From contig JAATGM010000028.1 in assembly GCA_015654675.1 (NCBI GenBank), positions 1 through 64,000 on the forward strand: a stretch of DNA of 64,000 nt. The letters are read 5' to 3'. The first letter of the stretch is position 1. Each line of letters opens with the position of its first letter. This stretch comes from Planctomycetota bacterium (lineage in GTDB: Bacteria > Planctomycetota > Phycisphaerae > UBA1845 > UTPLA1). The notes below the pieces were generated by a model. The model saw nothing but the letters and a program-made list of their open reading frames with translations. It had not been told where the DNA came from and did no database searches. This document shows, in pieces, positions 2,933 to 60,391 of the stretch. The position numbers and the translations under genes are program-made.

Positions 2933-4009
2933 ATGACGAAGCTCATTCGATTGTTTGGTGTCATCGGGTATGTCGCGGTCTGCGCGGCGGCGGGCTGCGC
3001 TGAGTCGCGCGGTAGTCGCGATGCGCTGGCTTTTATTGACACCTATCCGGCCACGGCGGTTTCGCCGCTCAATCCGAAGATTGCAAAGCGGATGGAGGGC
3101 CGCAGCGGAGGTGGCGCAGACTTCACCAAAATGCCCGCGCCGGAGATGCGGGTGTCGTTCGACAAGTTGATGGCGGGAACACCAAAGCTGAACGAGCCCG
3201 TGGCGAATACGGTGAACCGCAAACTCAGCATCGGCGCCGAATGGAGTATTCCGGTCCGCACTTACAATCCGACCGGGACCGGCCCATTTCCAATCCTGAT
3301 GTATTTCCACGGCGGCGGTTGGGTGGTGGGCTCGCTGGATGGCTATGACGATCTTTGCCGGTCGTTGTGTCATCGGGCCGGAGCGGTGGTCGTGTCGGTC
3401 GACTACCGGCTAGCGCCCGAGCACAAGTATCCGGCGGCGGCCGAGGATTGCTACTCGGCGACCGCGTGGTGCGCGGCGCACGCCGGGGAAATCGGCGGCG
3501 ATGCGAAGCGGCTGGTGGTGATGGGTGACAGCGCGGGCGGGAATCTCGCGGCCGTCGTCGCCCTGATGGCACGTGACCGGAACGGGCCGGCGATTGCGGA
3601 ACAGGTGCCGATCTATCCGGCCACGAGCTGCGGCTACGAAATGGCTTCGTATCACTTCTTCGATTCGGGCTACGGCCTTTCGCGCGGCATGATGCGCTAT
3701 TTCTGGGACGCCTATCTGCGCGACCCAGCCGACGCGACGCAGCCCTACGCCGCTCCGCTGCAGGCGAGCAATCTTGCCAATCTGCCTCCGACGCTGATGA
3801 TCACCGCGCAATACGACCTGTTGCGCGACGAGGGCGAGGCCTACGCGGCCCGGCTCCAACGAGCGGGCAACCAGGTGCGCTGCACGCAATACCTCGGCAT
3901 GACGCACGGGTTCATCAACGGCGGGGCGATTTACCCGGAGGCCGATCAGGCCATATCGCAGGTGTCAAAGGCCGTTCGGCTGGCCGGGACGAGCGGCGCA
4001 ATTCATTAA
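2933..4009 (+). CDS. Alpha/beta hydrolase, hormone-sensitive-lipase-type esterase, probable lipoprotein
   Basis: A 358-residue carboxylic-ester hydrolase. The N-terminus (MTKLIRLFGVIGYVAVCAAAGC) looks like a lipoprotein signal ending at AAAGC, although position -3 is Ala, so the lipobox is weak. The HSL-family oxyanion motif HGGGWVVG, the nucleophile elbow GDSAGGN, the acid region DLLRDEGEAYA and the histidine of GMTHGFI are all present. VSVDYRLAPEHKYPAA is also typical. The start at 2933 was preferred to 2909 because GAGGAG lies 8 bases before it and 2909 falls inside the palindrome. It is a single-gene unit followed by the promoter of hpt. Confidence 0.9.
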   Translation: MTKLIRLFGVIGYVAVCAAAGCAESRGSRDALAFIDTYPATAVSPLNPKIAKRMEGRSGGGADFTKMPAPEMRVSFDKLMAGTPKLNEPVANTVNRKLSIGAEWSIPVRTYNPTGTGPFPILMYFHGGGWVVGSLDGYDDLCRSLCHRAGAVVVSVDYRLAPEHKYPAAAEDCYSATAWCAAHAGEIGGDAKRLVVMGDSAGGNLAAVVALMARDRNGPAIAEQVPIYPATSCGYEMASYHFFDSGYGLSRGMMRYFWDAYLRDPADATQPYAAPLQASNLANLPPTLMITAQYDLLRDEGEAYAARLQRAGNQVRCTQYLGMTHGFINGGAIYPEADQAISQVSKAVRLAGTSGAIH

Positions 4010-4062
4010 TCCACCGAAAGTTCAGGCGCCGAGGCCGGGCTTTCGCGCCGGTCGCATCCAGC

Positions 4063-4068
4063 TATAAT
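4063..4068 (+). promoter_or_regulatory. Perfect -10 box of a predicted leaderless hpt promoter
   Basis: TATAAT ends 6 bases before the hpt ATG, so the expected transcription start coincides with the A of the start codon. No Shine-Dalgarno is visible. The -35 region (TTTCGC about 16 bases upstream) is weak. Confidence 0.6.
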
Positions 4069-4074
4069 GGCCGA

Positions 4075-4617
4075 ATGGAAGCCGACATTAGTCGGATTCT
4101 GATTCCTCGCGAGACCATCGCGCGCCGGGTCCGCGAGTTGGCGGGGGAGATCGCGTCGACGTACGGGGACGAAGCCAGCGGGTTGCTGCTCGTGCCGATC
4201 CTATCCGGTTCGCTGATCTTTACCGCCGATCTGATGCGCGAGCTTCCGTTCGTCATGCGGATCGCGGTCCTGAGCGTCAGCAGTTATCGCGGGGCCTCGA
4301 CACAGGGCGGGACGCCGAACATCGTGCAGGACCTCAAGCTCGACATTCGCGGGCGGCACGTGCTGGTGGTGGACGACATCCTCGACACCGGCAACACCCT
4401 TCGCATGGTGATGGGCAAACTGGCCGAGCGCGGGCCGGCGAGTTTGCGAATGTGCGTATTGCTGCGGAAGAAGGACAAGGCGCCGAGCGATTTGAAGGCG
4501 GATTTCGTGGGGTTTGATATCGACGATGTATTCGTCGTGGGATATGGGCTGGACTACAACGACCAGTATCGCAACTGGCCGGAGATCGCGGTACTGAAGC
4601 CGGAGCTTTACCAGTGA
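4075..4617 (+). CDS. hpt: Hypoxanthine phosphoribosyltransferase
   Basis: A 180-residue type I phosphoribosyltransferase that salvages hypoxanthine and guanine to IMP and GMP using PRPP. The PRPP loop VVDDILDTGNT, the earlier LVPILSGSLIFTADL and the C-terminal DFVGFDIDDVFVVGYGLDYN with YRNWPEIAVLKP match HPRT closely, and the length is standard. Translation probably begins on a leaderless message, because a perfect TATAAT lies 6 bases upstream. The stop overlaps the GTG of the next gene (GTGA), giving a two-gene unit. Confidence 0.95.
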   Translation: MEADISRILIPRETIARRVRELAGEIASTYGDEASGLLLVPILSGSLIFTADLMRELPFVMRIAVLSVSSYRGASTQGGTPNIVQDLKLDIRGRHVLVVDDILDTGNTLRMVMGKLAERGPASLRMCVLLRKKDKAPSDLKADFVGFDIDDVFVVGYGLDYNDQYRNWPEIAVLKPELYQ

Positions 4618-8020: not shown

Positions 8021-10441
8021 CTATCGAGTGGGCTTGCTGGGTGCCGCGGTGACCTGGGCGGTGGGGGCAGCCGCGCTGCGACTGGGGCCGGCCTCGCGAA
8101 GACTATCGATCACCACAGCGGTTGATAGAATTTCCGGAAGCACCAGCGGCTTCTCGGGGTCTTTTCCGGGAATTACGACATACATCGGGACGCCGGCGCG
8201 GCCGTTCTTGTCGAGGTCTGCCTTGATCTCTGGATCATTGGACGTGTAGTCGGCCTTGAATGGGATCACGCCAAGGTCGCGCATGACGGTTCGAACGTCG
8301 TTTGTGTTCAGAATGAGTCTTTCGTTGGCTTTGCAGTTGACGCACCAGTCGGCGGTGTAGTCGATGAAGAGCGTCTTGCCGGCGGCGATCGCTTCCTCGG
8401 CGGCCTTGTGCGAATAGGGAACCCACGGGATTTCGTTGGCGTTTTTCCATTTGAAGTCGAGGACGGAGGCCATGCCGCCGCCCTTGCGGAGCAGCATCTG
8501 ATCTTCGACGAGTTTGTCGATTGGGGCGGCGAATCGGAAGCAAAATGCCCAGCCGCCGATGAGAAGAATTGCGACCATGACGAACGTTTGAAGTTTGCGT
8601 GCGAACTCTGCGCCGAACTCGAGACGCCCGAGCACCCACACCGCGGCGGCGACGAAGATGAGAAAGACGATGGTCCAGAGCAGGCCGTCCGGACCGAGCT
8701 GCGTGCCGAGCGGCTTGAGCAGCCAGACGACCGTGGCGAGCAGCAGGAAGCCGACGACGCGCTCAAACGTACCCATCCATGCGCCGGGGCGTGGGACAAT
8801 CGTGACCCAGGCGGGATGCGCCGTGAGGGCGATATAGGGCAGCGCCATTCCGATGCCGGCCGCGAGGAAGATTCCAAACGCGACGTTGGGCGGCTGCTTG
8901 ATGGCGAGTGCGACGACTGCGGAGATGAACGGCGCTGTGCAGGCGGTGCCGAGGGCAGTGGCGAGCAGGCCGGTGCCAAACGCGCTGGCGAGGCCTTCGC
9001 CCTGTACCTTCTCACCAAGCTCGTTGATGGCGCGGGGTGGGTTGAGCGAGAACACGCCGAAGAGACTCATCGCAAAGGCGGTGACGACCGCGGCTATACC
9101 GATGACGAAGCGCGGGTTCTGAAACAGGCCGCCCCACTGGCCGCCGAATTGTCGGATGACGATTCCCAGTGCGGCGAATGAAACGATGATTCCGGCGCTG
9201 AATGCGAGGCCCAGTGCGAAGACGCGGAGGCGGTGTTCGTGGGCCTGGCGCACGAATGAGAGCACTTTGATCGAGATCACCGGGAGCACGCAGGGCATGA
9301 AGTTGAGCAGGAAGCCGCCCACCAGCGCCATCGCGAGGTATCCGATCACGCCGTACTGCGTAAACCAGTTCTGGGCACGCTCCAGCCAATGCGCCTTCGC
9401 AGGCGGTGCTGGTGGAGTTGGCGTCGAAGTGCCGGCCACGGCCGGGTTGGCGGCGGCAGCCGCGGCGGCCTTGGCGCCGGCGATCTTCAGCGGGATTTCA
9501 AATTCGACGGCGGTGGGCGGATAGCACGTGCCCGTATCGTTGCACGCCTGATAGCGGAGGTTCGCGTAGAGATTCATGGGCTTCAGCGCGATGTCCGGCT
9601 CGGTCTCGGCTGCGATGGTCAATGTGACGCCGCCCGAATACTCGCTGACCTTGCCGACGTCTTTAACCATTCGCTCCTTGCCGGGCGGATAGACCGGCTC
9701 CTCGAGCAGGACGCCGTTCGGCGCATCGAGGAAGAGCTGCGTCGCGACGAGTCCTTCGACGGTCGGCTTGGCCGATTGAATGTGGTATCCCCGCTCGACG
9801 TCGACCGTGACTTTGACCTCAAACTTCTTGCCCGGCTTGATTTCGGCCGGGGCCTGGACCGCGCGGACCTTGATGTACTTCGCGTCGGCCAGTGGCACCG
9901 GCAGCGCGTGGCGGGCGCGCTTGAACTCGGATTCATTGGCCGGGTCGGTTTTCGCGTTGGCGGCGACCACCGGAAGATCCAGCGACAGGTCGGCTTCGCC
10001 CGGGACGCAGATCGTCTTGCATACGAGCCACGATGTCTTGGCAGAGATCTTGACCGCTTGTCCGGGCTTCGCGTCGGCCGGGGCGGTGACCTCGGCCAGA
10101 ATCATCGGCGCCGGCCCATCGAGGATGAAGGTTAGGTCTTCAGGCGTATCGCCGTGGGCAATTGGAGCCGGGTATTGCAGCGGGCCGACCTTCCAGCCCT
10201 TGGGAAGCGTGAATTTCACGATGGTGGGGACGCCGGCGGCCGGGCCATTGTTGCGCCAGTAGATGTGCCATTCGGGGGCGACCGCGAACTGAGCCGCGAC
10301 GGTGATTTTTCCGCCGGGTTTGATGGCGGTAGCGTCGGCCAGCAGTCGGGCCTTGACGTTCTTCTGCAATACTTCGGGCCCGACTCCGGGCGCTCCAAGC
10401 ATCGCGAGAGTTAGCTGGGTGATGAGAAACGGTGCAATCAT
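8021..10441 (-). CDS. Thiol:disulfide interchange protein of the DsbD/ScsB type
   Basis: An 806-residue membrane protein that carries electrons from cytoplasmic thioredoxin to periplasmic thiol proteins. Order: a signal-like start; an N-terminal DsbD-alpha-like region (residues 25-330) with the pair in LVCKTICVPG; a transmembrane DsbD-beta block (about 360-620) with the buried cysteines of NFMPCVLPVISIKVL and GTACTAPF; and a C-terminal thioredoxin domain with ADWCVNCK followed by RAGVPMYVVI. GGAG lies 7 bases before the ATG. The neighbour truB is cotranscribed but functionally unrelated. The size and order fit ScsB-like proteins better than classic E. coli DsbD. Confidence 0.9.
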   Translation of the reverse strand: MIAPFLITQLTLAMLGAPGVGPEVLQKNVKARLLADATAIKPGGKITVAAQFAVAPEWHIYWRNNGPAAGVPTIVKFTLPKGWKVGPLQYPAPIAHGDTPEDLTFILDGPAPMILAEVTAPADAKPGQAVKISAKTSWLVCKTICVPGEADLSLDLPVVAANAKTDPANESEFKRARHALPVPLADAKYIKVRAVQAPAEIKPGKKFEVKVTVDVERGYHIQSAKPTVEGLVATQLFLDAPNGVLLEEPVYPPGKERMVKDVGKVSEYSGGVTLTIAAETEPDIALKPMNLYANLRYQACNDTGTCYPPTAVEFEIPLKIAGAKAAAAAAANPAVAGTSTPTPPAPPAKAHWLERAQNWFTQYGVIGYLAMALVGGFLLNFMPCVLPVISIKVLSFVRQAHEHRLRVFALGLAFSAGIIVSFAALGIVIRQFGGQWGGLFQNPRFVIGIAAVVTAFAMSLFGVFSLNPPRAINELGEKVQGEGLASAFGTGLLATALGTACTAPFISAVVALAIKQPPNVAFGIFLAAGIGMALPYIALTAHPAWVTIVPRPGAWMGTFERVVGFLLLATVVWLLKPLGTQLGPDGLLWTIVFLIFVAAAVWVLGRLEFGAEFARKLQTFVMVAILLIGGWAFCFRFAAPIDKLVEDQMLLRKGGGMASVLDFKWKNANEIPWVPYSHKAAEEAIAAGKTLFIDYTADWCVNCKANERLILNTNDVRTVMRDLGVIPFKADYTSNDPEIKADLDKNGRAGVPMYVVIPGKDPEKPLVLPEILSTAVVIDSLREAGPSRSAAAPTAQVTAAPSKPTR

Positions 10442-10613: not shown

Positions 10614-10641
10614 TTGACGGAGTAGGGTGTGACTTTATACT
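10614..10641 (+). promoter_or_regulatory. Sigma70-like promoter upstream of rny leader
   Basis: TTGACG (10614-10619), a 16-base spacer and TATACT (10636-10641) form a strong promoter pointing toward RNase Y, about 590 bases ahead of its start codon. Confidence 0.6.
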
Positions 10642-11235
10642 GATGCAAATGGGAGCGTGTGCGTCGCTCCCGGAGCGATAACTTGTTTCGGGGCTTGTTG
10701 ATGCGATCGATTTGGTCGCGTCGGCCGGCTTCGTCGAAAGGAGATTCGTCACCCATCGCCTCGTGTTCGAGGCGGAGGCGGAACGAATAAGGCGTCGTGG
10801 CTGGAAGCCGGCCCATCCGCAGGCAGCGGAAGGGCGGCGCAGTACAGCCGGATTGACCCGCTGATGTTGAGAGTTCATCAAGCCGCGGCCTCGCAGATAC
10901 CGGAAGCGGCCGATCGTCGGAGTGGCATTCAGGATCATATCATTCATGTTTTTCGATTATTCATTCTTTCATCTGGCCACCTGCAATCGGACGAACACGA
11001 GGTCTTGCACGGCACGATCTGAATAAGCGGATCACCCTCGACTCGAACCGGGTCGATCGTCTGTTCTGACGCAGCCGGATCGGTTTCCACCGAGCGACTG
11101 TCCTTTCTTTGTTCCGTCTTTCCCAAGTGTGTGCGCGACGTCGCGCTTCGGCTGCGCAGTTCGCGGGCCGGTGTGCTCGGCGTCCGCCGTGTGGACTGAT
11201 GGTTCAATCATTTCAAGACAGGAAGGCATTGCGTC
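10642..11235 (+). ncRNA. Long structured leader or small RNA upstream of rny
   Basis: This non-coding stretch follows a strong promoter. Several compact inverted repeats are visible: GGGAGCG/CGCTCCC near 10651-10671, CGCCTCG-tgtt-CGAGGCG near 10758-10775 and GCCGC/GCGGC near 10883-10911. The section around 10940-10975 is AT rich and could end a small RNA. Motifs of RNase P RNA, tmRNA and SRP RNA were looked for and not found. It could be the 5-prime UTR of rny, an independent sRNA, or both. The remaining bases to 11235 hold only the rny Shine-Dalgarno (GGAAGG). Confidence 0.35.
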
Positions 11236-12822
11236 ATGGGATCTTCGATTTTGTCGGAGGTCTCGACCTTCACGTATCTGTACCCGCTCGTGGCGGGGAT
11301 CGCGGCCGGCGCCATCCTTTGCTATTTCGGCTTGAAGTTCATGGGTCGTCGGAACGTCCTTCTGGCGACGCAGGATGCGCAGAGGAAGCTGGACGAGGGT
11401 CAGAAGCGGGCCGACGAGGTCGTCCGGGCCGCTGAGGTCGAGGCAAAAGCACGTTTTCTGCGGGAGCAGCAGGAATTTGACAAGAGGACATCGGTCGCCC
11501 GGGATGAGTTGCGCGATGTCGAGAAGCGGCTGGATAAGCGTGACGATCTCCTCAACCTGAAAATGGAGACGCTGATCTCGAAAGAGAAAGCGGTCGAGGC
11601 GGGAGAGGGACGGATTCGCGAGGGGAACAAGGCGCTGGAGGGGCAGCGTGGCATCGTCGAGGAGACGATCCGCGAGCAGAAAACCCAGTTGCTGCGAATC
11701 TCGGGCATGTCGCGCGAAGACGCCAAACAGGCCCTCTTTCGTCAGCTCGAGCACGACCTGTCGAGCGAGACATCGCAAATCATCGAATCGGCCGTCACCA
11801 AGGCGCAGGACGAGGCGCAGAGCAAGTCGCGCGAGATTGTCATTACTGCGCTACAGCGGTACTCGGCGGAGCACACCGCGGCGTCGACTGTCAGCACGGT
11901 TGATGTTCCCAATGATGAAATGAAAGGCCGCGTGATCGGCCGCGAAGGCCGGAATATCCGCGCCTTCGAGCGGGCCACGGGTGTTGACGTGATCGTGGAC
12001 GACACGCCCGGCGTGGTGGTCGTCAGCGCGTTTGATCCGGTGCGGCGCGAAATCGCGCGGCGGGCGCTGGGCAAGCTGATTGAAGACGGCCGCATCCACC
12101 CGACGCGGATCGAAGACGTGGTCGGCGAGATTAAGCAGGAGGTCGAGCGCGAGATCCTCGAAATCGGCAAGAAGGCCAGCATCGAGGCCAACGTGCCGGG
12201 ATTGCATCGCAAGATGCTCGACCTGCTTGGGCGGTTGCACTATCGCACCAGCTACAGCCAGAACGTGCTGCGGCACTCGATCGAAGTGGCCTACATGTCG
12301 CAGATCATCGCCGACGAATTGAAGCTCGACGGGGCGCTGGCACGCCGCTGCGGACTGCTGCATGACATCGGCAAGGCCGTCGATCATGAGGTCGAGGGCG
12401 GCCACCCCGCCATCGGCGCCGAAATCTGCCGCAAGTTCAACGAGCCCGAAGAAGTGATGAACGCCGCCGCCGGACACCACGGCGATGTGCCCGCCACCAG
12501 CCCCTACACGCCGATCGTCGCCGCGGCCGACGCGATGAGCGCATCGCGGCCAGGGTCGCGTCGCGAATCGCTGGAGCGTTACATCAAGCGGATGGAGGAT
12601 CTGGAGAACATCGCGAAGGGATTTGGCGGTGTGCAGCAGGCCTACGCGATTCAGGCGGGGCGCGAAGTACGGGTGATTGTCGATGCGCACTCGGTCGATG
12701 ATTCGAATGCGATGCGCGTCGCACGCGAGATCGCGAAGAAGATCGAGTCGGACATGACATATCCCGGCGAGGTCAAGGTCACGTTGCTGCGAGAGGTTCG
12801 AGCGGTCGAATACGCGCGTTAG
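11236..12822 (+). CDS. rny: Ribonuclease Y
   Basis: A 528-residue membrane-anchored endoribonuclease that starts decay of many mRNAs. It has one N-terminal TM helix (residues 15-36), a long coiled coil (40-200), a KH domain with [15 protein letters not shown], and an HD domain with [18 protein letters not shown] and AAGHHGDVP. The length and domain order are standard. GGAAGG precedes the ATG by about 9 bases. It stands alone behind an unusually long leader, which may allow autoregulation of this RNase at the mRNA level (inference). Confidence 0.96.
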
Positions 12823-28140: not shown

Positions 28141-28335
28141 TCAGGGGCCGGCGGCCGGCATCGGCGTGGTCGGCTGCGTCGTGCCCGGCGGCAGCGCCTC
28201 GTCCATCGAGGCGACATAGATGGCCATGGCGCCGATCATCAGCACGACGGCCACGATCAGGGTCCAGGGCTGCTTGTGTTTCTGGATATGGTGCTCGGTG
28301 TGGGTCTCGTGATGATGGGGTCGGTCGTGACTCAT
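28141..28335 (-). CDS. Small His-rich single-TM protein
   Basis: A 64-residue protein with a His-rich N-terminus (MSHDRPHHHETHTEHHIQKHKQ), a single TM segment (WTLIVAVVLMIGAMAIYVA) and a short Pro/Thr tail. The histidine cluster hints at metal binding or membrane anchoring near metal proteins. The gene is supported by a good promoter (TTGGCT-16-TATACT) that ends 7 bases before the ATG. It converges with amrA, whose stop abuts its own. Confidence 0.7.
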   Translation of the reverse strand: MSHDRPHHHETHTEHHIQKHKQPWTLIVAVVLMIGAMAIYVASMDEALPPGTTQPTTPMPAAGP

Positions 28336-28342
28336 GCGGCGG

Positions 28343-28370
28343 AGTATAGGGAATTCACGATGGAAGCCAA
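28343..28370 (-). promoter_or_regulatory. Leaderless-type promoter of the His-rich gene
   Basis: On the minus strand TTGGCT (28370-28365), a 16-base spacer and TATACT (28348-28343); the ATG follows after 7 bases, so the transcript is expected to start at or next to the start codon. Confidence 0.6.
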
Positions 28371-30914: not shown

Positions 30915-31304
30915 TCAGATGCGGGGGAGGCGGGGGATTCGGTCGAAGTGCTTGTCGCGCGAGTAAAGCACAAGATCGTGTTGCAGGGTCAGGGCGGCGA
31001 TCCAGACGTCATTGGTGGGAATCGGTGTACCGGCGGCACGCAAGTCGGCGAAGACGGCTGCATAGACGCGCGTGGTTCCTTCGTCGGCGAAGAGCACCTC
31101 GACTCGTGGGGAATGCAGGAAGCTGCTCATCGCTTGCTCATTCTTTGTGGAATTTCGCCCGAGGCGAAATCCGGCCCGAAGCTCGGCCAGCACAATGAAA
31201 GGCAGGGCAATGCGTTGCGCGGCGCGCAGCTTGGTAAGCGCATCGTCGTCGCCGCGACAGAGGTCCGTGTATCGATTGGCGTCGATCGCGATGCTCAGCG
31301 CCAT
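30915..31304 (-). CDS. vapC: VapC-family PIN-domain toxin ribonuclease
   Basis: A 129-residue PIN nuclease. Acidic residues are D8 (AIDANRYTD), E41 (VLAELRAG), D99 (TNDVWIAAL) and D117 (YSRDKHFDRIP), the usual DEDD quartet. Related toxins cut initiator tRNA or other RNAs. The start at 31304 lies 10 bases inside the antitoxin gene, the usual coupled arrangement. The gene ends 4 bases from tsaD, which is convergent. Confidence 0.88.
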   Translation of the reverse strand: MALSIAIDANRYTDLCRGDDDALTKLRAAQRIALPFIVLAELRAGFRLGRNSTKNEQAMSSFLHSPRVEVLFADEGTTRVYAAVFADLRAAGTPIPTNDVWIAALTLQHDLVLYSRDKHFDRIPRLPRI

Positions 31305-31561
31305 AGGTCTTCGTCGATGACGTCCTGGGCGGCGATGGCGGCATCGAATTCGGGGTCTTCCACCCACGTGCCAATGAGGTGATCGAGGTCGTGGTAGGTG
31401 CGGGGCGTGTCCGCCAGACCCGATCCGTTGCGAAGTGCGTCGAGAGCGACTTCATTCAGACTGCGGCGCTCGCGTTCGGCGCGATTGCGAAGCGCCCGGT
31501 CAACCTCGGGTGGTACGCCGCGAATGGTGTATTGTTGCCTCTTGGCCTCGCGCGACTTCAT
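31295..31561 (-). CDS. VapB/FitA-like ribbon-helix-helix antitoxin
   Basis: An 88-residue protein. The N-terminal half reads like a RHH DNA-binding domain (QQYTIRGVPPEVDRALRNRAERERRSLNEVALDALRNG, here a strand, two helices and the SLNE turn); the C-terminal half (HDLDHLIGTWVEDPEFDAAIAAQDVIDEDLW) is the toxin-wrapping tail. It precedes and overlaps the VapC gene. Its promoter gives an expected start exactly at the ATG. Confidence 0.85.
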   Translation of the reverse strand: MKSREAKRQQYTIRGVPPEVDRALRNRAERERRSLNEVALDALRNGSGLADTPRTYHDLDHLIGTWVEDPEFDAAIAAQDVIDEDLWR

Positions 31562-31567
31562 GTAGGC

Positions 31568-31596
31568 AGTATATGAATGCATGTGCAGGCAATCAA
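31568..31596 (-). promoter_or_regulatory. Leaderless-type promoter of the toxin-antitoxin pair
   Basis: On the minus strand TTGATT (31596-31591), a 17-base spacer and TATACT (31573-31568), then 6 bases and ATG. The spacer contains the palindrome ATGCAT flanked by GTGC, a possible operator for the RHH antitoxin. Confidence 0.65.
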
Positions 31597-40220: not shown

Positions 40221-41342
40221 TCAGGTCCGCGCGACCGTTGTGCGTTTCTCAAGTTCTTCCAGCGCCCATTTCGAATCGACCACCTGCTGCGGCGGCAGGC
40301 AGCCCTTGGGCAGCTTCGCGGCCGAATCGCCTGCGGCTTTCGCGATCCAGTAGGCGGGAATGGTCACGCCCCAACTGGTCGTCAGCTCCATGGCCGAGAA
40401 TTGCGGATTGCCGAAGACGGTAATCGCGACGGCGTGCTTCTTTCCCGCGTCATCCGTGCCCTCGACGCGAAGGAAGACCTCGTCGATGTCGCGTCGGCGG
40501 TCGAAGCGCAGCCACTCCTGTGCCGCGATGCCGGCGGCGAGGGCTTCGTCCTGGGTGCGGTTTCCGCTCAGGAAGCCGAAGGCCTTGAGCACCAGCACCT
40601 TCTCGAGGTGGCCGCGCCATCGCACCGTTTTGTATTCGTAGTCGCGCAAGCCGATCTGGCTCAGATACTCGAACGATTGCGGAGCGTTGTTGGACGTGTA
40701 GAACGCCTCGCGCTCATTGGGCAGCTCTTCGCGACCAGTGAGGGCTTCGACGAGTTCGACGCGGCCGTTTCGCAGCACGGCGCACTGTCCGGAATATTCG
40801 CTGATGAGCCCCCACGGGCTGAAGAGCAGCTTGTATTGCAGCGAATTGGCCGGGTCTTTCTTTGCCGGGATGCCGCCGCAATAGGCCTTTGCCGCGGTGC
40901 AGTTGAAGGCGCGGCGGAGATGGACGGCCATGATGTTGTTGAGACCCGGGGCGAGTCCGCAGTCGGGCAGGACCAGCAGCGAGTTGCCGCAGATGCGCGT
41001 CTGCTCGGCGACGACGTCGGGATTGCCGCCGAGGTCTGCCAGCGGGACGTTGGCACGGATGCAGAGCTTCGTCGCGGCCGGATTGAGGGCGTAAGGCAGC
41101 GCCGAGATGGCGCAGGCCGAGCCGCGGATGAAATCAATAATTCGCTCGGCGTGGGCCGGATCGGCCGGACTGAGCTCGTGAAGTTCGACGAGTTTGGCAC
41201 GGTCCCCCAGCGTTTCGCGCAGGCGCTCGGCGACCTGCGCAGCGACGTCAAATGCGATGACGCGCGTCGCACCGCACCGTTCGATGAGATCATAAATGAC
41301 GGCGACACCCTGTCGGCCGACGCCGAAAACGCTGTAAATCAT
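40221..41342 (-). CDS. Saccharopine dehydrogenase / lysine 6-dehydrogenase family oxidoreductase
   Basis: A 373-residue NAD(P)-dependent enzyme. The Rossmann start is MIYSVFGVGRQGVAVIYDL, then SALPYALNPAATKLCIRANVPLADLGGN and VLPDCGLAPGLNNIMAVHL, both characteristic of the lysine 6-dehydrogenase/saccharopine reductase group. Whether it acts on lysine, saccharopine or carboxynorspermidine is unknown. A promoter TCTACA-17-TAGAAT ends 6 bases before the ATG and no Shine-Dalgarno is visible, so the mRNA is probably leaderless. Confidence 0.88.
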   Translation of the reverse strand: MIYSVFGVGRQGVAVIYDLIERCGATRVIAFDVAAQVAERLRETLGDRAKLVELHELSPADPAHAERIIDFIRGSACAISALPYALNPAATKLCIRANVPLADLGGNPDVVAEQTRICGNSLLVLPDCGLAPGLNNIMAVHLRRAFNCTAAKAYCGGIPAKKDPANSLQYKLLFSPWGLISEYSGQCAVLRNGRVELVEALTGREELPNEREAFYTSNNAPQSFEYLSQIGLRDYEYKTVRWRGHLEKVLVLKAFGFLSGNRTQDEALAAGIAAQEWLRFDRRRDIDEVFLRVEGTDDAGKKHAVAITVFGNPQFSAMELTTSWGVTIPAYWIAKAAGDSAAKLPKGCLPPQQVVDSKWALEELEKRTTVART

Positions 41343-41348
41343 GTCAGG

Positions 41349-41377
41349 ATTCTACCGTCGCTTTCCAAGAATGTAGA
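41349..41377 (-). promoter_or_regulatory. Leaderless-type promoter of the saccharopine-dehydrogenase-like gene
   Basis: On the minus strand TCTACA (41377-41372), a 17-base spacer and TAGAAT (41354-41349); 6 bases separate it from the ATG at 41342. Confidence 0.6.
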
Positions 41378-57355: not shown

Positions 57356-60349
57356 TCAATTCAAATCTGTCAAGTGTTGCCTCAGCAAATCGACCTGCGT
57401 CTGCAATTCCGCCGCGCGAGCACGGGCTTTTTCGACGACGTCCGCCGCCGCACGCGATACAAACGCCTCGTTCGAGAGCCGATCGGCTTCGCGCTGCCCC
57501 GCCGATTGCTTTTCGGCCAGCTCGCCTTCGAGCCGTTTGCGTTCCGCCGCGAGATCGACGAGGTCGCCCACCGGCACAAACACCTGGGCCGATTCGTGCA
57601 CGTGCGTCATCGATCCGGCCGGCTTTGCAATTTCCGGGCCGAACTGCAGGTCGTCGCAGCCCGCCAGCAGTTTCACGAAAGCGGCCTGCTTTTCAAGCAG
57701 CTCACAGCACCGTGCCGACCCGCGCACCACCGCCTTCGGCAGCGTCCGCAGGGCCGGCTGGCCCGGACGTAAAGCGTTGACCCGCGTGCGGATATCGCGA
57801 ATTGTGCGGATCACGGCCTTGAGGATTTCCATGTCGGCTTCGACCGGCTCATCGCGCTCGGCCGGGCAGCGAGCGGGCCAGGCGGCCGTGGCCAGCATCG
57901 GCTCGGCGGCGAGCACGGCGCCCACCCCGCGACGGGGTGCGGCGGTTGCCAGTTGCTCCCAGATACCCTCCGTAACAAACGGGGCCACCGGGTGCAGCAA
58001 TCGGACAAGATGGTCGAGGCACCAGACCAGCATCCGCGTCGCGACAACGGCGGTCGTGCCGCCCTCGCGCAGCCGCGGCTTGACCATCTCGACGTACCAG
58101 TCGCAATAGTCGTTCCACATGAACTGGTAAAGCGTCTGGACGTAGTCGCTAAAGCGGTATTGATCGAGGGCCGTGTTCACGCCGTCGATGCACGCCGCCA
58201 GCCGCGAGAGGATCCAGCGATCTTCGAGTCGCAGATCGGCCGGCGCGATCGGCTGCGGCATCGACTTGTCGATGTTGGGAATGACCAGCCCGGTGGCGAC
58301 CTGCCACAGCTTGTTGCAGAAGTTGCGGCCCTTCTCGAATCGCTCCGACGTGTTGACCTGCCGGCCGTCGGGCAGCTTCATCGGCTTGACGGGAATGCGG
58401 ATGTCCTGCGTCTCGGTGGCCAGCTCGGCCAGCGTGTAGCGCAGCGCGTCGGCCCCATAGGCGTCGATGATGTCCACCGGGTCGACGCCGTTGCCAAGCG
58501 ACTTGGACATCTTGCGGCCCTGGCCGTCCTGGATGACGGCATGGATCACGACGTCGCGGAACGGCACGTGGCCGGTGTTGAAGAGGCCGGACATGACCAT
58601 GCGGGCAACCCACAGCGTGATAATCTCGCGCGCCGTGGATAGGGCGGTGGTGGGGTAGTAGAACTGAAGCGCGGGATCATCGCCGTTGGGCCAACCGAGC
58701 GTGGAAAGCGGCCAGAGGGCGGACGAAAACCAGGTGTCGAGGACGTCGGGGTCCTGCTGGAATCCGGCCGCCTCAATCTCTAAACGCACTTTCTCGCTCA
58801 CTGCGTCCGCATTCGGCAGGCAAATGAATGCCTCGATCGCTTGCTCCGCATCGTCGCCTTCGATCCCATGGAAAAGCGTTTGGTCGTCCCAGGGAATCGG
58901 TTGCCATCGACCAGTCCGTGTTAACACGACTCCGTCTAGTCCGGCGAGTCGTGCACCGTCCGCTTCATTCCAGCCCGGTCGACCGGGTTTTCCGAAAGTC
59001 GGCTCATCGAATCGCTTGTGCCAGACCGGAATCCGATGTCCCCACCAAAGCTGCCGGCTGATGCACCAGTCGCGCTTTTCGCTGAGCCAGTCGATGTAGG
59101 TCTGCACATAACGGGCGGGGAAGAAGCGGACGCGGCCATCGTTGACCGCGTTGATGGCGAGTTGGGCGAGGCCCGGCGCGCCGCGTAGCGCGGGAATCTT
59201 TGCGGCCTCTTCTGGCGGCAGGTCGCCCATCTTCACGAACCACTGGTCCGAGAGGTAGGGCTGGATCGCAACCTTGCTCCGATCGGAGTGGCCGACCTGC
59301 GTCTCGTAGTCCTCCACTTTTTCGAGCAGCCCGGCCGCTTCGAGGTCGGCCACGACCTTCTTGCGGGCGTCTTCCAGTTTCATCCCGGTGTACGCGCCGC
59401 CGTTTTCATTCATGCGGCCGTCGGGCGTGAGGACGTTAATCATCGGCAGCGCCGGGTCCTGCCGCAGCGCGCACTGATAATCGTTCGGGTCGTGGGCTGG
59501 CGTGACCTTCACGCATCCCGTCCCGAACTCGCGCTTCACCAGCAGGCCGTCGCCAACGATCGGAATCTCGCGATTCGTGAGCGGTAGCTTGATTGTGCGG
59601 CCGATCAGTTTTGCGAAACGTTCGTCGTCCGGGTGAACAGCAACGGCGGTATCGCCGAGCATGGTCTCAGGCCGCGTCGTCGCGACGATCAGGTGCGTTA
59701 CGCCTTCGGCCGGCTGGGTCAGCGGATAGCGGATGTGCCAGAGGTGGCCTTTGACGTTCTCGTGATAGACCTCGTTGTCGGCCACGGCGGTCTGAAGCTG
59801 CGTGTCCCAGTTGACCAGTCGCTTGCCGCGATAGATCAGCCCCGCCTTGAACAGGTCGAAGAAAAACTGCCGCACCGCCTTGGCGCATTGCTCGTCAAGC
59901 GTGAACCGCGTCCGCTCCCAATCGCACGAGCAGCCCATGAGCTGAAGCTGCTCGATGATGCGGTTGCCGTATTTCTCCTTCCACTCCCAGATGCGGCGGA
60001 CGAGCTCGTCGCGCCCCAGGTCGTGGCGGGTCTTCTTCTCCGTCTTCTGGATGTCTTTCTCGACCGTGGCCTGCGTGGCAATGCCGGCATGGTCGGTACC
60101 GGGCATCCACAGCGTGTTCTTCCCGGCCATGCGGCTGCGGCGGATGAGGATGTCCTGCAAAGTGTTGTTCAGCGCATGCCCAAGATGCAGCGCCCCGGTG
60201 ACATTAGGCGGCGGAATAACCATGCTGAACCGTTGATCGGGCGGGCGCTCGTCGGGCGTCGCATGAAACGCGCCGCTATCGAGCCACTTACGATAAATCC
60301 GCGCTTCAAGTTCGCGCGGCGAATACGCCTTGGATGGGGTGTCGCTCAT
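57356..60349 (-). CDS. valS: Valyl-tRNA synthetase
   Basis: A 997-residue class I synthetase. HIGH appears as PPPNVTGALHLGHAL (46-60), KMSKS as GRKMSKSLGNGVDP (about residue 613), with the editing CP1 insert and a C-terminal coiled coil (VDLAAERKRLEGELAEKQSAG). GTDHAGIATQATVEKD is also typical. The promoter (TTGGCG-17-TCTAAT) ends 9 bases before the ATG and no Shine-Dalgarno is seen, so the leader is very short. The promoter segment is repeated at 61426-61488. Confidence 0.97.
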   Translation of the reverse strand: MSDTPSKAYSPRELEARIYRKWLDSGAFHATPDERPPDQRFSMVIPPPNVTGALHLGHALNNTLQDILIRRSRMAGKNTLWMPGTDHAGIATQATVEKDIQKTEKKTRHDLGRDELVRRIWEWKEKYGNRIIEQLQLMGCSCDWERTRFTLDEQCAKAVRQFFFDLFKAGLIYRGKRLVNWDTQLQTAVADNEVYHENVKGHLWHIRYPLTQPAEGVTHLIVATTRPETMLGDTAVAVHPDDERFAKLIGRTIKLPLTNREIPIVGDGLLVKREFGTGCVKVTPAHDPNDYQCALRQDPALPMINVLTPDGRMNENGGAYTGMKLEDARKKVVADLEAAGLLEKVEDYETQVGHSDRSKVAIQPYLSDQWFVKMGDLPPEEAAKIPALRGAPGLAQLAINAVNDGRVRFFPARYVQTYIDWLSEKRDWCISRQLWWGHRIPVWHKRFDEPTFGKPGRPGWNEADGARLAGLDGVVLTRTGRWQPIPWDDQTLFHGIEGDDAEQAIEAFICLPNADAVSEKVRLEIEAAGFQQDPDVLDTWFSSALWPLSTLGWPNGDDPALQFYYPTTALSTAREIITLWVARMVMSGLFNTGHVPFRDVVIHAVIQDGQGRKMSKSLGNGVDPVDIIDAYGADALRYTLAELATETQDIRIPVKPMKLPDGRQVNTSERFEKGRNFCNKLWQVATGLVIPNIDKSMPQPIAPADLRLEDRWILSRLAACIDGVNTALDQYRFSDYVQTLYQFMWNDYCDWYVEMVKPRLREGGTTAVVATRMLVWCLDHLVRLLHPVAPFVTEGIWEQLATAAPRRGVGAVLAAEPMLATAAWPARCPAERDEPVEADMEILKAVIRTIRDIRTRVNALRPGQPALRTLPKAVVRGSARCCELLEKQAAFVKLLAGCDDLQFGPEIAKPAGSMTHVHESAQVFVPVGDLVDLAAERKRLEGELAEKQSAGQREADRLSNEAFVSRAAADVVEKARARAAELQTQVDLLRQHLTDLN

Positions 60350-60391
60350 GTTGAGAACATTAGACGCGCAGCCGGGAGAAACGCCAAGCGG
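60329..60391 (-). repeat. Direct repeat copy A, spanning the valS promoter and start
   Basis: Matches 61426-61488 at 55 of 63 positions. Copy A contains the valS -35 (60382-60387), -10 (60359-60364) and start codon. Confidence 0.8.
60359..60387 (-). promoter_or_regulatory. valS promoter
   Basis: On the minus strand TTGGCG (60387-60382), a 17-base spacer and TCTAAT (60364-60359). The ATG begins 9 bases downstream, leaving a leader of about two bases. Confidence 0.6.

Follow-up and report, generated by a model that had tools for sequence, protein, structure and literature searches.

Candidate leaderless promoters at hpt and a minority of other gene starts in a planctomycete genome

Leaderless mRNAs transcribed from sigma-70 promoters are a known class, and they have been suspected for Planctomycetes by Nakagawa 2017 (PMC5397173), where the non-Shine-Dalgarno genes of one planctomycete were predicted to use leaderless mRNA and/or S1. 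TA-led genes, which Zheng 2011 (PMC3160421) described as lacking a Shine-Dalgarno (SD) sequence and having a TANNNT some 12 bp ahead of the start codon, are reported there to be widespread but not dominant in bacteria, exceeding 20% in Actinobacteria and Deinococcus-Thermus; the main text of that study does not mention Planctomycetes. According to the account of Shell et al. 2015 given in PMC5397173, mycobacterial mRNAs start with AUG or GUG, with the -10 directly before the start, and leaderless starts proven by mapping make up about a quarter of transcripts.

We analysed 64,000 nt of contig JAATGM010000028.1 (the window), from a planctomycete genome of 4.93 Mb in 62 contigs with 64% G+C. An initial annotation had proposed that several genes in the window are leaderless, with a promoter form known from Actinobacteria and Deinococcus; the host is a planctomycete, and it uses mainly SD sites. 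The arrangement shares with TA-led genes both the TANNNT distance and the absence of an SD, but it would concern only about 2-5% of genes, and its box is nearer to the full TATAAT than the degenerate form of Zheng 2011 in high-G+C genomes. It likewise has the -10-before-start layout that PMC5397173 relates for mycobacteria, although here it accounts for a small share of genes and is known from sequence alone. As regards the two mechanisms left side by side by Nakagawa 2017, the -35 conserved at 16 bp, together with conservation at individual genes, favours promoters over S1. A literature search with most subscription journals outside its scope returned no transcript-start map for this planctomycete group.

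We consider ordinary sigma-70/RpoD-type promoters giving leaderless mRNAs to be the best explanation, with a probability of about 0.87. The -10 box of such a housekeeping-sigma promoter would end 6-8 bases before the ATG, and RNA polymerase, starting about 7 bases past the -10, would begin the RNA at the A of ATG or within 1-2 bases of it. An mRNA of this kind has no room for an SD and must therefore be translated leaderless, with ribosomes presumably recognising the 5' AUG directly, while most of the remaining genes use SD sites or sit inside operons. Where exactly the RNA begins, and that it is translated without a leader, we infer from the position of the boxes.

Promoter-like sites in the window

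Five genes carry a promoter-like hexamer close to their ATG. Read directly from the sequence, all five hexamers and their spacers are as the initial annotation described them, and its statement that these genes have no SD agrees with the absence of AGGA, GGAG and GAGG within -17 to -4 (0/5 sites). The -35 boxes that it placed at 16-17 bp are present for vapB, the His-rich gene and valS, whereas the corresponding sequences of hpt and the saccharopine-dehydrogenase gene (TCTACA at 17) are poor matches. The features are as follows.

4041-4046, forward strand: candidate -35 of hpt, TTTCGC (poor match), 16 bp gap to the -10
4063-4068, forward: -10 box of hpt, TATAAT (TATAAT-N6-ATG, 4063-4077); spacer of 6-8 kept in 24/29 orthologs
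4075-4617, forward: hpt, phosphoribosyltransferase (PF00156), predicted leaderless
28141-28335, reverse: gene for a small His-rich protein, probably with a single membrane helix; no Pfam match
28343-28348, reverse: -10-like TATACT of the His-rich gene, 7 nt before the ATG (TATACT-N7-ATG, 28348-28333)
28365-28370, reverse: -35 of the His-rich gene, TTGGCT, 16 bp gap to the -10
30915-31304: PIN-domain gene, after vapB
31295-31561, reverse: vapB-type antitoxin, FitA-like ribbon-helix-helix (PF22513)
31568-31573, reverse: candidate -10 box of vapB, TATACT, 6 nt before the ATG (TATACT-N6-ATG, 31573-31559)
31591-31596, reverse: -35 of vapB, TTGATT, 17 bp gap to the -10
40221-41342, reverse: saccharopine dehydrogenase-like gene (PF16653)
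41349-41354, reverse: -10-like TAGAAT of the saccharopine-dehydrogenase gene, 6 nt before the ATG (TAGAAT-N6-ATG, 41354-41340)
57356-60349, reverse: valS, with a probable 2-3 nt leader
60359-60364, reverse: -10 box of valS, TCTAAT, 9 nt before the ATG (TCTAAT-N9-ATG, 60364-60347)
60382-60387, reverse: -35 of valS, TTGGCG, 17 bp gap to the -10

The recurrence of such sites had been put forward as an argument against chance, that is, against TA-rich hexamers near starts in a 64% G+C genome having been picked by eye. With the loose pattern TANNNT-N6-ATG, proposed for counting against shuffled sequence, this argument fails: there is no excess over shuffles, the window containing 7 matches vs 5.07 expected (26/100 shuffles reach 7), and the genome-wide count of 357 is below the 460 of a reversed-pattern control. 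It holds for gene-anchored patterns (see below) and for the strict pattern TATAMT-N6/7-ATG (M = A/C), found 4 times in the window vs 0.08 expected, with 0/100 shuffles reaching 4, although these odds are somewhat flattering since the strict pattern was devised after the sites had been seen. The lack of conserved counterparts for the saccharopine-dehydrogenase, vapB and His-rich sites also speaks for chance, but the gene-start excess in three genomes does not, and chance is already refuted for hpt by conservation of its arrangement across the order. As an account of the whole set chance is very unlikely, but it may explain a site or two among the five, control rates predicting about 0.6 chance matches among the 55 genes of the window.

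The strict matches are those of hpt, vapB and the His-rich gene and one at 10636. This last site (TATACT-N7-ATG, 10636-10651, forward) has no called gene and lies between genes at 8021-10441 (reverse) and 11236-12822 (forward).

Conservation at hpt, purQ and guaA

We compared the hpt upstream regions of 29 order-level orthologs, bearing in mind that relatives are non-independent samples. In 24 of them a TATAAT-like box (at least 5/6 matches) precedes the ATG at a spacer of 6 (n=18), 7 (n=4) or 8 bases (n=2), and just one match of this quality occurs at any other spacer in the range 0-60. Within the family, TATAAT or TACAAT is found at spacer 6 or 7 in each of the 17 genomes, while the bases separating box and ATG vary and the proteins are 60-71% identical to that of our genome. 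The poor TTTCGC of our hpt has its counterpart in a TTG-type box at the same distance in the relatives. The box just before the hpt ATG is thus kept in most genomes of the order, making hpt the strong case of the set, with a predicted RNA start at A4075 or one base before. Among orthologs elsewhere in the phylum the arrangement is rare, and SD or other leaders predominate.

Two further genes have a similar organisation. The purQ gene is leaderless-like in our genome, with TANNNT at spacers 6-9 in 18/30 orthologs. For guaA, found in G002, inspection reveals in many orthologs a TANNNT-type box that ends 6-8 bases short of the ATG and is often accompanied by TTGAC some 17 bp further upstream; a strict count gives only 6/29 orthologs. 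When 41 hpt and purQ promoters from orthologs were scored against TTGACA, the match was sharply highest at a gap of 16 bp (mean 2.98/6 vs about 0.8-1.6 at other gaps), and at least 4/6 positions matched in 26/41 promoters at this gap vs 1-5/41 in shifted windows. As a set, hpt and purQ orthologs carry a TTGACA-like -35 at a gap that lies in the 16-18 bp range expected of a sigma-70-type promoter, and comparison of orthologs establishes that the putative promoter arrangement is conserved at hpt, purQ and guaA.

These observations bear on the possibility that the A/T-rich hexamer is a translation element (an S1 site or an unstructured start region) and that transcription starts further upstream. 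An A/T-rich bias at -20 to -10 was reported by Nakagawa 2017 in several phyla including Planctomycetes, with leaderless and S1-dependent initiation inseparable. S1 sites, however, lack the properties seen here, namely a defined hexamer in which positions four and five are conserved too and a second conserved box peaking exactly 16 bp upstream; moreover, the -10 is kept while the spacer sequence differs. We regard a translation element as quite unlikely.

Misplaced start codons, with true starts downstream and leadered transcripts, are an extremely improbable explanation. Such an error is conceivable for vapB, whose start is not fixed (see below), but alignments of the hpt, purQ and guaA orthologs begin at about the first residue, with approximately 50-80% identity. 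Translation of hpt is unable to start upstream in G003 and G005, where the ATG follows directly on a TGA in the same frame, and an in-frame stop within the -10-like box of the saccharopine-dehydrogenase gene (the TAG of TAGAAT) also argues against misplacement.

With the promoter reading, what was a statistical hint of leaderless transcription in this planctomycete group becomes a set of conserved candidate promoters at named genes (hpt, purQ and guaA). That these three genes are kept leaderless across the order in order to couple purine supply to transcription is quite unlikely. If it were true, an AUG start, which needs ATP, would let promoter output track the ATP pool without a regulator or a leader, but control of purine genes by the initiating ATP is weakly supported. 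Both purQ and guaA were picked for being purine genes and so provide no evidence of functional enrichment. A general rule for purine genes was rejected, as purB and guaB of our genome have no such promoter.

A minority class of gene starts

Gene starts were taken from a simple codon-based caller in samples of 1.25 Mb from our genome and 0.4 Mb each from G013 and G002, and strong -10 boxes at spacer 5-9 were compared with the number expected from spacers 14-59. Our sample has 18 such boxes among 729 ATG starts vs 8.0 expected (p = 0.0017), a modest excess that is smaller than those of G013 (12/222 vs 1.2) and G002 (10/218 vs 1.2); internal ATGs have almost none. The excess is probably conservative, because the expected values may contain real promoters of leadered genes. 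Among 191 ortholog pairs of G002 and G013, a conserved -10 is found in 8/191 leaderless windows vs 7/1146 upstream windows, a sevenfold higher density (p = 0.0004). A matrix trained on the hpt, purQ and guaA promoters of other genomes gave 38 vs 15.8, 13 vs 3.0 and 16 vs 3.0 in the three genomes, an excess estimated at about 2.5% of the genes of our genome and 4-5% in G013 and G002. Together with the ortholog comparisons, these counts reveal a two-box, promoter-type signal whose distance to the start codon is fixed and which is enriched at gene starts, and they suggest that the leaderless class is a minority of roughly 2-5% of called genes.

A count over the whole of our genome gives 28 instances of TATAAT-N5-8-ATG, compared with 10 at N15-18 (p = 0.005). 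Across the phylum, in a table covering 84/118 genomes (most of those omitted have counts of 0-3), genomes with few chance matches total 866 vs 543, with 46 genomes up and 7 down, while the remaining genomes have almost no excess (5288 vs 5000). Of the features that describe TA-led genes, we find the -10-like TANNNT some 12 bp ahead of the start codon, the lack of an SD, and a gene-start signal above genomic background, the last not with loose TANNNT-N6-ATG.

Bacterial transcripts usually start at a pyrimidine-purine step. A C stands directly before the ATG in 29/39 leaderless-like genes vs 47% elsewhere (p = 0.0009), which fits such a start. SD sequences are absent from leaderless-like genes (0/40, vs 40% with an SD), a difference that is in part trivial, since the SD position is filled by the -10 box itself. 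SD cores are most frequent 6-9 bases before starts, indicating that SD initiation is used too, and it is the main mode in our genome. Gene callers that expect an SD may misplace starts in these genomes. The high-scoring leaderless-like genes are mixed housekeeping genes, which from their N-termini, read by eye, we take to be GcvT-like, LptF-like, RuvB, AlaS, LpxD and NadA. Pooled over the three genomes, leaderless-like genes have spacers of 6 (17/39), 8 (13) and 7 (4), a distribution that double-counts G002/G013 orthologs and may be due to chance.

The other sites of the window

The proposal that RNA starts on or beside the ATG, which fits hpt and the genome-wide minority class well, holds fairly well for valS. 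This protein is 71% identical to that of uncultured Phycisphaerae MAG.52 (JAKLKO01), followed by other planctomycete records, which makes the host an uncultured planctomycete and probably a member of Phycisphaerae. The nearest relative has TTGACA-17-TCTAAT-N9-ATG and two genomes (G001, G012) have GATAAT-N6-ATG, while other relatives have long leaders. Given the spacer of 9 bases, the valS mRNA is predicted to have a leader, probably of 2-3 nt.

The proposal has no independent support at the three remaining genes, whose sites have the local match only. The promoter of the saccharopine-dehydrogenase gene has no conserved counterpart, the nearest relative having an SD-led leader. Conservation was not found for vapB or the His-rich gene in the single distant homolog available for each (G021), both of which have SD-like sequence in the leader before the start. 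A second in-frame ATG lies 21 nt upstream in vapB (31561-31582), with open frame beyond, so the vapB start is not fixed, and TATACT would be coding if the upstream ATG were used.

Elsewhere in the window, an inverted repeat at 2862-2910, with 23-nt arms that are 96% complementary and 3 nt apart (ATGAAAGCATGCGGTTAAATTAC / GTAATCTAACCGCATGCTTTCAT), just precedes an alpha/beta-hydrolase gene (2933-4009) and could be an operator or terminator. As for the 3' end of the 16S gene of our genome, the gene is cut at a contig end.
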